In this document: positions 30,968 through 39,288 of the stretch, piece after piece
Numbering within the stretch: the first letter of the stretch is position 1
Layout of the letters: the number at the start of each line of letters is the position of its first letter
IMG/VR virus record: IMGVR_UViG_3300043409_000645
Span: 1 to 41,125 of that record
DNA: 41,125 nucleotides
Direction: 5' to 3' (one strand)
DNA from: a virus
Notes under the pieces: generated by a model
Database searches by the model: none
Seen by the model: only the letters and a program-made list of their open reading frames with translations
What the model was told of the DNA's origin: nothing
Position numbers and translations under genes: made by a program

Positions 30968-32827
30968 CTAGACGAAGTGTCGCTCTTGTGCTGCAATCAG
31001 TTCGTCAATGTTGACGACTATTCGTTTTTGTTTTTCGGCCCTAGATAGAAACGGATTACGCATATGGTTTTGTTGGTATTGACCATAGTTGAGCATCTCA
31101 CGTGCTCGGATTTCACAGAACCACAGCGCCATTACTAAGTCAGTCTTGCCTTTAGTAGTTGGAGACCACGTAATAAGTTGTTCGATTAGTGCCTTGATAT
31201 TCTCAGTTTGATCTGAAGGCAAGTGGATAAGGTTATCTCTGTGGTGTTTGCCATCTTGTTGCTTTGTTCCAAACAAGGTAGACATAGAAGCCACACCAAA
31301 GCCAGCGTCCCATTTGTTGTTACCAGTATGGTGTTCTTTGAGTTGAACGCCACGTGATGCTAGGTGTTGACGGATTCCTTCGTCTTGCGTTAAGAAAGCC
31401 TGAAAAGCGTTCTTTTCTACAATCCACTCTGACGGTTTATAGATTTCAGTCCAGTCAAAAATAAGCTGCCTAATTTGTGCTGGAGTCGGTCTAGTAATTT
31501 TATGAGTATCCACAATATAGCGTTTATGATTGTGGCGATTAATTGCATAACATACAACGGCAGTATCACCAACCATAGCAGGGTCCAAGCCGCAAATGAA
31601 AGTGAATCCATTAAGGTCTTTAGGATGACCTGGATAGCCCGCATTTAATGCACCCGCCTTACGCATTCCGTCAATCGAACCACGAACACATACAGGGTCA
31701 AAAATAGCGTCATCTGAAATGTCCTGTTGTTGGTAAATCAAAGCCCACGTGGAGGCATCCATAGATTGGCGCTCGTTATATAAGTTGCGACCATTCCAAC
31801 GTGGGTAAAGTCCTTCTGGTGTCTTATCAGAATCTAGCTGTCCATCAAAGGGAGCATCGGAAGCAGGCCAAAGCGTTTCCCATTTATCAGGATCTTCATC
31901 TGTTTGAAGTAGCGCTGGCATAGCCAGATATTTCCACGGTACTAGACCGCCTGGATATCTGTCGGGGTTTCTAAGTTCGCGATACAAGTCAACACTAGCA
32001 ACGCGGGTTCCAATAATAATGAGTTTGCCTGTTGGGTTAAGGCGGGAACGTACGTCCTGAGTCAGCCACTTAATCTGACGTTCAAAGTCATTAGCGTTGC
32101 TTAGGGTTACAGCATCGTCTACGATAATCATATCGGCACGTTTGCCGTAAATCTGACCGCCGATACCAACGGCTTCAATGTTTGGATCCTTTTCACCAGA
32201 CTCACGGAGTTCATCTCCGAAGGTGATGCGGGTTGCCTGCCACGAAGCTGACTTAGAGTTAAAGCCAACACCTGCAGCGTAAGCCTGCTGGAGTTCCTCA
32301 TACTGTGGATGAGTCAGTCTTTGCTTGATAGCGTACAAGAAGTCTGCCGCTAGACGTTGGGTCTGGGATACAATTAGGATTCTAAAGTTAGGGTTGCGTG
32401 CTACCTGCCACGTAGCGTAGTCTACGGTTATGGTCATAGACTTTGCGTGGTTAGGCGGAATGTTAATCAGGACGCGGTTATCTGCCAGTCCTGTTTCCCA
32501 TTTCATACTAGGGTGAAGCCAGCCTGGCTCTCGACCCTCAATTACATCTACTAGATTCTGCTGATGTGGAAAAGTCCTGGAGTGCAGAAAACGCTGACGA
32601 AATTCAGAGAAGGAAATGTCGTGGACGTCACCAGAGGCAAAGGACTTGTCTTTGAGTCCTAGCCTAGTACGATCTACTTTATCTAAAAATACTTTGTCTG
32701 TGCGGCGGTAGTACTCGTAGGTTTTCATAGACTTACCAGCTGAGGCACAAGCCTGCTCTATAGTCATACCTTCTGCTACACAACCAAGGATAATTCTTTT
32801 GGCAATGTCGGCGGAATTATCTGCCAC
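30968..32827 (-). CDS. terL: Terminase large subunit
   Basis: 619 residues, full length. ATPase: Walker A-like PPNHAKS (124-130), Walker B MIIVDD (D237, D238), and a coupling/motif III region IIIGTR near 271-276. Nuclease: GLDPAMVGD with D415 as the first metal ligand. Residues 1-60 carry an extra HTH-like helical domain (MTIEQACASAGKSMKTYEYYR), and no separate small terminase is recognisable, so DNA recognition may be built in. Start is GTG 32827 with GGAG eight bases upstream. It packages DNA into the prohead. Confidence 0.92.
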   Translation of the reverse strand: MADNSADIAKRIILGCVAEGMTIEQACASAGKSMKTYEYYRRTDKVFLDKVDRTRLGLKDKSFASGDVHDISFSEFRQRFLHSRTFPHQQNLVDVIEGREPGWLHPSMKWETGLADNRVLINIPPNHAKSMTITVDYATWQVARNPNFRILIVSQTQRLAADFLYAIKQRLTHPQYEELQQAYAAGVGFNSKSASWQATRITFGDELRESGEKDPNIEAVGIGGQIYGKRADMIIVDDAVTLSNANDFERQIKWLTQDVRSRLNPTGKLIIIGTRVASVDLYRELRNPDRYPGGLVPWKYLAMPALLQTDEDPDKWETLWPASDAPFDGQLDSDKTPEGLYPRWNGRNLYNERQSMDASTWALIYQQQDISDDAIFDPVCVRGSIDGMRKAGALNAGYPGHPKDLNGFTFICGLDPAMVGDTAVVCYAINRHNHKRYIVDTHKITRPTPAQIRQLIFDWTEIYKPSEWIVEKNAFQAFLTQDEGIRQHLASRGVQLKEHHTGNNKWDAGFGVASMSTLFGTKQQDGKHHRDNLIHLPSDQTENIKALIEQLITWSPTTKGKTDLVMALWFCEIRAREMLNYGQYQQNHMRNPFLSRAEKQKRIVVNIDELIAAQERHFV

Positions 32828-32945
32828 GTAGGTCTCCTTAATAGGGCGCGAAGCGCCAAAATAAAATCGGGCGGAATGCCCATTTCATATACTAGGGAGA
32901 ATGATGATTACTAGGCGCAGCCATTTTTATAGAACTCACCCGACT

Positions 32946-33079
32946 AAAAACCGCGACTGCGGGTACTGTCGGCTCCCGAAGGAGCCACAGCGACTGAGGG
33001 GTAAGTTAGTGCTCAGCCCTAGGGGGCCTCGCAAGAGGCCAACCAGCACAGTGACGGGGCTTTCCAAACTTTCAGCCCC
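32946..33079 (-). ncRNA. Candidate structured small RNA upstream of terminase
   Basis: Read leftward: a 6-bp stem (33074-33079 with 33056-33061, 12-nt loop); a 5-bp closing stem (33045-33049 with 33009-33013) enclosing a perfect 6-bp hairpin (33035-33040/33025-33030, TTGC loop); a 10-bp stem with one bulge (32981-32990 with 32966-32976) capped by a UUCG tetraloop; and finally CCGC-AGTC-GCGG followed by TTTTT (32946-32950), terminator-like. A TATATA box ends six bases before the first stem. No match to a known RNA family that I recognise. Confidence 0.45.
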
Positions 33080-33084
33080 TACTG

Positions 33085-33090
33085 TATATA
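33085..33090 (-). promoter_or_regulatory. -10-like box in front of candidate RNA
   Basis: TATATA on the minus strand, placed so that transcription would begin at the first G of the GGGGCT stem (33079). No recognisable -35 and no TG extension. Could alternatively serve the late operon, because no better leftward promoter is visible before terminase. Confidence 0.35.
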
Positions 33091-33139
33091 AGGCAGGAAA
33101 AATACCGTATTTCCCGCTTTCTGTTATTTTATTTTACTA

Positions 33140-33152
33140 ATGTGTTACACAT
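33140..33152. promoter_or_regulatory. Palindrome, possible operator
   Basis: ATGTGT-T-ACACAT, a perfect 6-bp inverted repeat around one base, in AT-rich DNA between the divergent operons. The form fits a dimeric HTH repressor or activator site. Binding protein unknown. Confidence 0.4.
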
Positions 33153-33368
33153 CACATACTTTCCGTTTCTGACCTGCGGTTTTACTGGATCTGATTTAAC
33201 TTTAGGAAATATATTTATTTGGGGTACATAACACTACCTTGGACAAAAGTTAACAAGGTGGGGTCGCCTGTTCGCGCCTGAGGGCGCGAGCCCCGCCCCC
33301 TTGCCCCTTGTCGCGCCCGCTAATTCTGCCCCGTTGCGCCCTGTGCTGCTAGGGATTAGCGCGGGGTG

Positions 33369-33455
33369 GGCAGACCTATCGGCAGACCTTGCCCGAAATT
33401 AACATCTCCATAATTAGGCAGACCTGCCCCCGATTAAGTAAGCAGGGGCAGACCT
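33369..33455 (+). repeat. Four iteron-like GGCAGACCT repeats
   Basis: Exact copies start at 33369, 33381, 33417 and 33447 (spacing 12, 36 and 30 bases, near multiples of a helical turn), all in the same orientation. An 8-base inverted relative occurs near 34451 and a partial copy near 35190. The setting (GC-rich island next to AT-rich DNA in the only large intergenic region) suggests an origin or master operator. Confidence 0.55.
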
Positions 33456-37881: not shown

Positions 37882-38261
37882 AATCTAATTGCGTCCTCTA
37901 CTAAGAAGTAACCTACAATTTTAGGTACTTTAGCTTTGTTATCAAACTCAGTGCTGGCTGGCATCAAGTGTGTAAGCCATTGAGGTTCAGGTAAGTCAGT
38001 CAAATCAAAGGAATAGATACCAAGTGGAGTGGAATTAATATAGAAAGGGAGCAGGTTGCGTTGCGTTGCCTGCTCGATAAGAGCGCGATACTTTATCTGT
38101 TCAACAAGTAAATCGAGGTAGTGTGTCTGCCTACATTTTAATTCTATGAAATGACCAGCTTTATCGCTGATGCAATCAAAAGAGTCATAGATACCCTCAC
38201 TCTTGACCAAGTCTGGATACATCTCAGACTTAAGGTGATTAAATAACTGTTCCTCGTTCAT
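37878..38261 (-). CDS. PD-(D/E)XK-like nuclease
   Basis: 127 residues with SFDCISDKAGHFIELKCR, giving D29 and E40-x-K42, the minimal PD-(D/E)XK active site, followed by a helix with Q55. Short single-domain form. It starts by ATGA overlap with the sigma-like gene. May act as a DNA resolvase or host-DNA nuclease; no closer assignment is possible. Confidence 0.6.
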   Translation of the reverse strand: MNEEQLFNHLKSEMYPDLVKSEGIYDSFDCISDKAGHFIELKCRQTHYLDLLVEQIKYRALIEQATQRNLLPFYINSTPLGIYSFDLTDLPEPQWLTHLMPASTEFDNKAKVPKIVGYFLVEDAIRL

Positions 38262-38890
38262 CTAAATGGAGAGTTCCCGCCAAGTTCATCTTGCAAGTGA
38301 CGCAGTGCAGTGGTGCATCTACGATCAGCAGTAGATGTAGCACATTCTAGTACTTGTGCTATCTGTGCAAGTGTGTAATGCTCGTGATAACGCAAACGCA
38401 AAATAGTTTGATCTTCAATTTGTAATTTAATAAAACCCTTTTTAATATCAAGCAAAGTAGCAAGTAAGTTACCGCCTTCTGCTGGAGATGAAGAGCCACG
38501 AGGTTGCCCGTCCTTAAGCATCTCTTGTGCTTGTTCTAGGACTGTACCGTCAATAACTGAAGCAATAACAAAGGGCAGTAATTGTGCCAGTGTAGGGCTA
38601 TCGTAATAGGCTTCATCGGCTATTTGATAGCCAGACTTAGTAGCCTTTTCCTTGCGTGCGTAACGCTCTGCTACACGCCTCATCTGCCACGCTATACGCT
38701 GCTCATTGTGCTTACGTTGAGCAGTATCAAGCTCGGAAAGTTGGTCATTAATATAATCAACACGAGTGGTAGCCCAGTGGAAACACTCTTGCTTTACATC
38801 TTCTAGTTCAACCCAGTTATGAAAACGACGATGAATAGTACGAGCAACTGAAGGTACTAAATCAAAGAGTATTGGGTTGAGGTCGGTCAT
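38258..38890 (-). CDS. Sigma-70-family-like regulator
   Basis: 210 residues from ATG 38890 (ATGA overlap). The N-terminal WVELEDVKQECFHWATTRV resembles sigma region 2, and the C-terminal QTILRLRYHEHYTLAQIAQVLECATSTADRRCTTALRHLQDEL is a good region 4 HTH. The middle (about 95-150) is atypical, with a variable Ser/Pro/Gly loop. Such phage proteins may redirect RNA polymerase to late promoters or act as an antirepressor-like factor. Regulation of the late operon is inference. Confidence 0.65.
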   Translation of the reverse strand: MTDLNPILFDLVPSVARTIHRRFHNWVELEDVKQECFHWATTRVDYINDQLSELDTAQRKHNEQRIAWQMRRVAERYARKEKATKSGYQIADEAYYDSPTLAQLLPFVIASVIDGTVLEQAQEMLKDGQPRGSSSPAEGGNLLATLLDIKKGFIKLQIEDQTILRLRYHEHYTLAQIAQVLECATSTADRRCTTALRHLQDELGGNSPFR

Positions 38891-39288
38891 TCTTTGGGCC
38901 AAGTCTCATCGAGTACCATCATTGCAATAGCTGAATAGTTTAGAAGGTCAATAAAACTATCGCGTAAGGATTCGTTACTAGGCTTAACACCGCTATCTAA
39001 TAGGTTGTTAATGCGTGCTATTTTGTCCCACATACGTACACGCAGACCATTAAGAGGTCCACCTGGGCTAAGGCTGATGTTCTTAGGACCGTAGTCGTGG
39101 TGCTTTTTAATAAGTAAGTTACCTGCTGAATCCAAGATGCGCCAAACATTAGTGACAAAAGTATCATCTACCTTATTGGTATCGGTCTTATCAACACTTG
39201 CTCGCTCTGATAATCGGAGTGCAAGATCTGAAAGCCCATATGCTGCAAAGTCTGTAACATTGTGATCCACTCGTCCTTTGTCATTCAC
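38887..39288 (-). CDS. Nmad1/DUF1599-like nucleotide-modification protein
   Basis: 133 residues from GTG 39288, eight bases after GGAGG; ATG 39294 is the alternative. KKHHDYGPKNI, GLRVRMWDKIARINNLL and SLRDSFIDLLNYSAIAMMVL match the Nmad1 (DUF1599) family, predicted to be MazG/dUTPase-like helical proteins linked to phage nucleotide modification. It lies directly after the Toprim primase gene. Substrate unknown. Confidence 0.75.
   Translation of the reverse strand: MNDKGRVDHNVTDFAAYGLSDLALRLSERASVDKTDTNKVDDTFVTNVWRILDSAGNLLIKKHHDYGPKNISLSPGGPLNGLRVRMWDKIARINNLLDSGVKPSNESLRDSFIDLLNYSAIAMMVLDETWPKE

Follow-up and report, generated by a model that had tools for sequence, protein, structure and literature searches.

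What does a folded RNA do directly in front of the packaging and capsid genes of a phage? The window analysed here comprises 41,125 nucleotides of an uncultured phage (IMG/VR record IMGVR_UViG_3300043409_000645, positions 1 to 41,125), and its minus strand carries at 32946-33083 an undescribed folded RNA of about 130 nt, lying 5' of the genes for packaging and capsid. The late operon encodes terminase, portal, head and tail proteins, and its first gene is TerL (30968-32827, minus strand; GTG start at 32827, Shine-Dalgarno sequence at 32834-32839). To our knowledge, the switching-on of late genes is poorly understood outside the model phages, and this RNA probably controls when the late genes come on.

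The fold of the window RNA has a predicted energy of -64.6 kcal/mol (z -3.77), which none of 200 dinucleotide shuffles equalled, and in a sliding scan of both strands between 32701 and 33720 the best-scoring segment was the RNA stretch on the minus strand (z -3.87). Read on that strand, the element begins with a 5' hairpin, hairpin A (33056-33079, GGGGCU/AGCCCC), which is supported by the fold and by relatives. Hairpin B (33025-33040, GGCCUC-UUGC-GAGGCC) is seen in the fold, and hairpin C (33016-33027, GCCC-CCUA-GGGC), which overlaps it in the window, covaries in relatives. The core helix P4 (32975-33001, CCC-UC-R-S..S-Y-UC-GGG), with its conserved apical loop UNCGCUGURGCU, is the most conserved sequence of the RNA. 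A bulged 10-bp hairpin with a UUCG loop (32966-32990) is an alternative to P4, sharing its G's, and shows a compensatory change from C-G to A-U in a close relative. The last hairpin, CCGC-AGUC-GCGG followed by UUUUU (32946-32962), is terminator-like; directly 3' of its stem lies a conserved motif, TTTTAGTNGGGRTR..TCTAT (32928-32950), of which TTTTAGTNGGGRTR is less variable across relatives than the terminator hairpin. A first-pass annotation of the sequence had described four minus-strand stems, including the bulged UUCG stem and the GC hairpin with its U-run, and all of them were recovered where it had placed them. Two corrections come from the relatives: a minimum-free-energy stem overlapping the TATA box lacks conservation, and the conserved P4 (CCC..GGG) and the bulged UUCG stem compete for the same G's.

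Relatives were recruited in two ways, with TerL (at least 80 related viral contigs) and with a degenerate pattern drawn from the best-conserved part of the RNA (at least 120 stretches), giving at least 178 distinct RNA-holding contigs after removal of duplicates, the window counted in. Among the matches listed, TerL was found in 175 of these contigs and lies 3' of the RNA on the same strand in every one (175/175), with 105-722 nt between core and TerL; the six listed TerL matches without the RNA core are incomplete contigs that end inside or before it. A second TerL clade of at least 80 loci, recruited with the partial TerL of the most divergent RNA holder among the matches listed (L143), has a TerL about 72-80% identical to that of the window and diverged versions of the RNA. 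Upstream of TerL, nearly all of the clade 2 loci listed have the TATA start and the 5' hairpin, and in most of them the core, or a hairpin in its stead, is also present. Small, variable, unrelated genes, coding for an HNH endonuclease or a low-complexity Ala/Lys-rich protein, stand between the RNA and TerL in 11 of the contigs listed (L059, L064, L129, L142, L144, L146, L148, L151, L163, L179 and L196), an arrangement that ties the RNA to the start of the operon and not to TerL.

The search of Rfam 15 that the first-pass annotation had proposed gave no match to the window RNA above the gathering cut-off in any family, and low thresholds also returned nothing. Blast against GenBank phages and plasmids gave no match, no description of the RNA was found in the literature, and the two pattern matches in 84,980 prokaryote genomes were both without promoter and hairpins. 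On these comparisons the RNA appears common to this phage and hundreds of relatives, and without prior description. The relatives of TerL point to freshwater actinobacteria as the hosts, and phages of this lineage appear common in freshwater metagenomes. The contigs come from overlapping environments and their counts are not independent events, so the number of different stems is a better measure than the counts themselves.

The stems turn over extensively while remaining paired. In relatives, hairpin A takes the form GGG-GA-GCAAAGC..GCUUUGC-GA-CCC, with more than 15 other complementary stems in its place, among them GUAAAAC/GUUUUAC, GCAAAGC/GCUUUGC, GUAAAGU/ACUUUAC, GCAAAUGC/GCAUUUGC and GGGAUAUAC/GUAUAUCCC; clade 2 adds GCGAAUGC/GCAUUCGC, GGAGUGAAAC/GUUUCACUCC, GAGAGAAAC/GUUUCUCUC and others. 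Counted without an alignment among the matches listed, the GA/GA internal loop with a perfect stem (GGG-GA-stem..stem-GA-CC) is present in 81 of 165, as against 0.8% after shuffling, and 62 of 68 distinct sequences can form a hairpin C of 4 bp or longer, as against 22% in shuffles. For P4 (consensus CCC-UC-R-S, loop UNCGCUGURGCUY, S-Y-UC-GGG), the alignment-free count of the top S-S pair among the 177 contigs listed is 93 G-C, 83 C-G and one unpaired, and the same pair is the top covarying pair in an unguided scan. In clade 2 the two sides of the otherwise invariant CCC/GGG pairing change jointly, as CAUCC/GGAUG in L320, and L360 and L362 have pairs in place of the UC/UC mismatches (CCCUUGC/GCAAGGG, CCCUCGC/GCGAGGG). 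Run on the full MAFFT alignment, RNAalifold found no more than the CCC/GGG core and a single inner stem; because MAFFT misaligns the mixed hairpin types, a covariance-model alignment and alignment-free stem tests were used instead. In the former (97 distinct rows), which is fitted to its model and so, unlike the alignment-free counts, biased towards the model's structure, 186 cells have changed on both sides; shuffles give 57 (sd 7.5), and all slid controls give far fewer than 186. The covariation score is 0.271 against 0.109, reached by none of 500 shuffles. The compensatory changes in homologues on which the first-pass annotation had made its RNA depend are present.

Two other roles for the conserved sequence were tried and rejected. 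A coding sequence does not fit length differences that are not multiples of three, and most relatives lack an open frame. An antisense small RNA is unlikely because UACCCCUC, the best-conserved part of the RNA, forms one arm of a helix and covaries with the other arm (ACAUCC..GGAUG in L320), and because the complement of UACCCCUC is not enriched in the window genome.

The stems could also be palindromes of a DNA element, whether a cos or pac site, a replication origin or a cluster of operators, and the intergenic region does contain GGCAGACC repeats, CTAGTA repeats and, in 34 of the 142 relatives listed, DnaA boxes. The many G-U pairs are confined to the minus strand, which suits an RNA read from it better than a palindrome in DNA. 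Further points against DNA are the tandem G-A internal loops, the length of the apical loops, the promoter lying on the same strand as the hairpins, the U-runs that follow the final hairpin, and contig ends that do not pile up within the element. This makes a DNA element the least probable of the readings considered. A cos end was also sought from the contig ends and rejected, the ends being scattered.

The region upstream of the RNA is conserved as well. A TATATA box before the first stem, claimed in the first-pass annotation, was found at 33085-33090 on the minus strand, five bases ahead of the first hairpin, and as a -10-like box it predicts an RNA start at about 33079. The inverted repeat GCGGGAAAT..ATTTTTCCTGC (33093-33117, minus strand) abuts this -10 region and is a probable operator: it varies with compensation in several relatives, and the form that relatives share, GCGGGAAAT..ATTTCCYGC, touches the -10 box. 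Upstream of the promoter is a palindrome of CRP/FNR type, TGTGA-N6-ACACA (33141-33156, minus strand), which reads TGTGAN6TCACA in most relatives. The relatives share TATATA followed by AGTAGGGG, and operator and TATA box occur as a single copy in the window genome. A sigma-70-like factor encoded at 38258-38902 is a candidate user of the late promoter. About 110 nt upstream of the RNA promoter lies a strongly conserved block, GTACYCC..AAATATATTTCCTAAAGTGAA (33199-33227), which resembles a divergent promoter on the plus strand (TTCACTTTAGGAAATATATTTATTTGGGG in relatives).

The 3' end is more variable. The window's own terminator is weak, with a stem of 4 bp; among relatives the longest stems have 7 bp, and some loci have no stem at all. 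In 119 of the 255 loci listed a U-run follows a stem of 5 bp or more; these stems come in 20 different sequences that change with compensation, and the other loci are without one. Among the clade 1 matches listed, 36 of 85 distinct 3' regions with a U-run have no qualifying stem ahead of it, and 35 of 191 loci end in GGCAGGTGTAATAG instead of a U-run terminator; the predicted termination is therefore not universal. The first-pass view of a discrete RNA with its own start and stop has thus gained conservation, compensatory changes and a conserved promoter region, while its stop is supported in about half of the relatives.

The distance from this end to TerL bears directly on function. In the window the U-run is about 118 nt from the TerL start. 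It is often about 50 nt away in relatives, and no more than 60 nt in 75 of the 119 listed loci with a terminator stem of at least 5 bp. So short a gap leaves little room for a second promoter, and, barring one concealed there, polymerase would have to read through the U-run to transcribe TerL. Together with the position at the operon head, where genes are inserted before TerL, and with the competing hairpins described below, these distances favour a late-operon leader with regulated read-through, to which we assign a probability of about 0.48; what the first-pass annotation had offered as one possibility is now the preferred reading.

Second to it comes a free-standing small RNA made from the late promoter, acting in trans late in infection by binding a protein of the phage or of its host, which might be RNA polymerase, a nuclease or a ribosomal protein. 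It would account for the RNA's own promoter region and for the strong terminators of many members, and a fold that persists as almost all stem sequences change suits a protein-binding scaffold. There are parallels in the actinophages D29, Kampy and WC1, whose abundant, highly expressed non-coding RNAs near the genome ends, one of them near the left end before the late genes, have no assigned function (PMC10986025). Model R1 gave no significant match within the initial 6 kb of D29 and of Kampy, nor in a Streptomyces phage. A trans role would not require the RNA to stand so strictly at the start of the late operon, a sizeable minority of loci lack the terminator, and with the U-run so near TerL read-through would be required anyway; this reading is the main rival of the leader, and less probable than it.

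As a late-operon leader, the element would be the first ~135 nt of the late transcript, started at a single, tightly regulated promoter consisting of the TATATA box, the abutting inverted-repeat operator and the CRP-type site further up. The nascent RNA would fold into hairpins A, B and C and the core P4; part of transcription would stop at the terminal hairpin and U-run, releasing a free small RNA, and read-through would carry the polymerase into TerL and the structural genes. The folded RNA may set the choice between stopping and reading through in cis, by contact with RNA polymerase or an elongation factor or, alternatively, by exchange of P4 for a competing hairpin, with the outcome that the structural genes come on late. 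A leader should stand ahead of the late genes and share their strand, as the RNA does in all 175 distinct contigs listed. In 116 of the 126 distinct sequences among the matches listed, another hairpin could take up the G's of P4, either following P4 (CGGGC-GCUAA-GCCCG type) or preceding it (GGCUCC-UUCG-GGAGCC type); the shuffled control is itself high, at 57%, so the competing hairpins are only suggestive of a two-state leader. Pairing of the core UUACCC with a downstream GGG motif, a would-be antiterminator, was rejected, since swapped partners pair as well (-7.5 kcal/mol) as the RNA's own (-7.4 kcal/mol).

Known leaders offer partial precedents. The pR' leader of phage lambda (lambda 6S RNA) is a short transcript of the late promoter that ends at the terminator tR' just before the late genes, whose expression needs Q-dependent read-through. 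The likeness, by description only, lies in the late-promoter transcript, the terminator before late genes and the read-through; in contrast, no Q-like antitermination protein was recognised in the proteins scanned from the window phage, and the lambda leader is not known to have a conserved multi-hairpin fold. In phage HK022 the structured put RNA, at the 5' end of early operons, acts on the transcribing polymerase, which it contacts and makes less responsive to terminators further downstream. It and other structured antitermination leaders are alike, again by description only, in being structured RNAs at the 5' end of a phage operon with an action on polymerase, here a proposed one; put belongs to early operons and has two hairpins, whereas the present RNA has four to five, a late operon and its own terminator.

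A plain 5' UTR, whose hairpins would merely stabilise the late mRNA or provide a processing substrate, would agree with the further hairpins just ahead of the TerL Shine-Dalgarno sequence in the window (32845-32857 and 32869-32881). Stability alone needs no conserved core loop UNCGCUGURGCU, no tandem G-A motif and no fixed order of five hairpins, and we regard such a UTR as improbable.

The proximity to TerL also raises the question of packaging. An RNA of this large freshwater-actinophage lineage might work in trans with terminase or portal in head assembly and filling, like the pRNA of phi29, or might take the place of the small terminase subunit; the Planktophila phages would then have an unrelated RNA with an analogous role. 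The RNA always adjoins TerL, TerL is the only window gene with a terminase match, no small terminase was identified in the window, and the CTAGTA repeats conserved in the RNA-TerL gap are a candidate packaging site. The phi29 pRNA, likewise phage-encoded and structured, measures 120-174 nt and is located near packaging genes; it is thought to replace a function lost by the p16 terminase, and belongs with another terminase class and phage family (PMC11476376). The comparison with it that the first-pass annotation raised, while seeing no specific similarity, found no support: the Rfam covariance model of phage pRNA gave no match to the window RNA at E up to 5; in a 41-kb phage that is not phi29-like, the 619-aa TerL, far from a small nuclease-less ATPase of p16 type, matches T7 DNA maturase B and, just under the cut-off, an RNase H-like Terminase_6C domain. 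Genes can moreover be inserted between RNA and TerL, and an N-terminus of TerL that looks HTH-like by eye could do the small subunit's job. A part in packaging is therefore quite unlikely; if true, an RNA with such a part would be a new class of phage RNA machine component. That N-terminus (GMTIEQACASAGKSMKTYEYYRR) is possibly a built-in DNA-recognition domain, and CCTAGTA repeats 19 nt apart (32895-32915), between RNA and TerL, are a possible terminase recognition or packaging site; across relatives the density of CYAGTA is 8.9 per kb in the RNA-TerL gap against 0.8 per kb in TerL.

A leader at this position is not confined to the phages described so far. The Planktophila-phage clade, with a TerL about 46% identical, includes the cultured phages LanE43AprE7 and F5 (PMC10202952) and has a structured leader of another kind, also covarying, immediately ahead of TerL and on the TerL strand (2770-2995 in L198, 2969-3194 on the plus strand of OX376640, 21995-22220 on the minus strand of OX376641, and upstream of TerL in L202-L281). 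The two leaders share a TATA-like start, several covarying hairpins and the place before TerL. They differ in their set of hairpins, and the Planktophila type is undetected by model R1, which found nothing significant in 58 other tested sequences, chiefly of this TerL clade; Rfam has no match to it either. Stems of its third hairpin average 9.0 bp, as against 5.3 with partners swapped, and it has an invariant AAUAUAUAA loop and a conserved CAGAGUUAUGCCGUU. The presence of a different leader at the same place suggests that structured leaders ahead of TerL may be more general among these phages. Since the cultured phages E7 and F5 carry a leader at the same position, the question can be tested in culture. 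An RNA whose shape persists while almost all of its sequence is replaced must have an important function, yet this one falls outside every described family; it is probably a sign of how late genes are turned on in these phages.

Elsewhere in the window, four GGCAGACC repeats at 33369-33454, in a GC-rich intergenic region, are possible origin iterons; the whole window holds six copies against 0.7 expected. In the late region, the gene at 5225-5791 matches the proteasome/HslV peptidase family.
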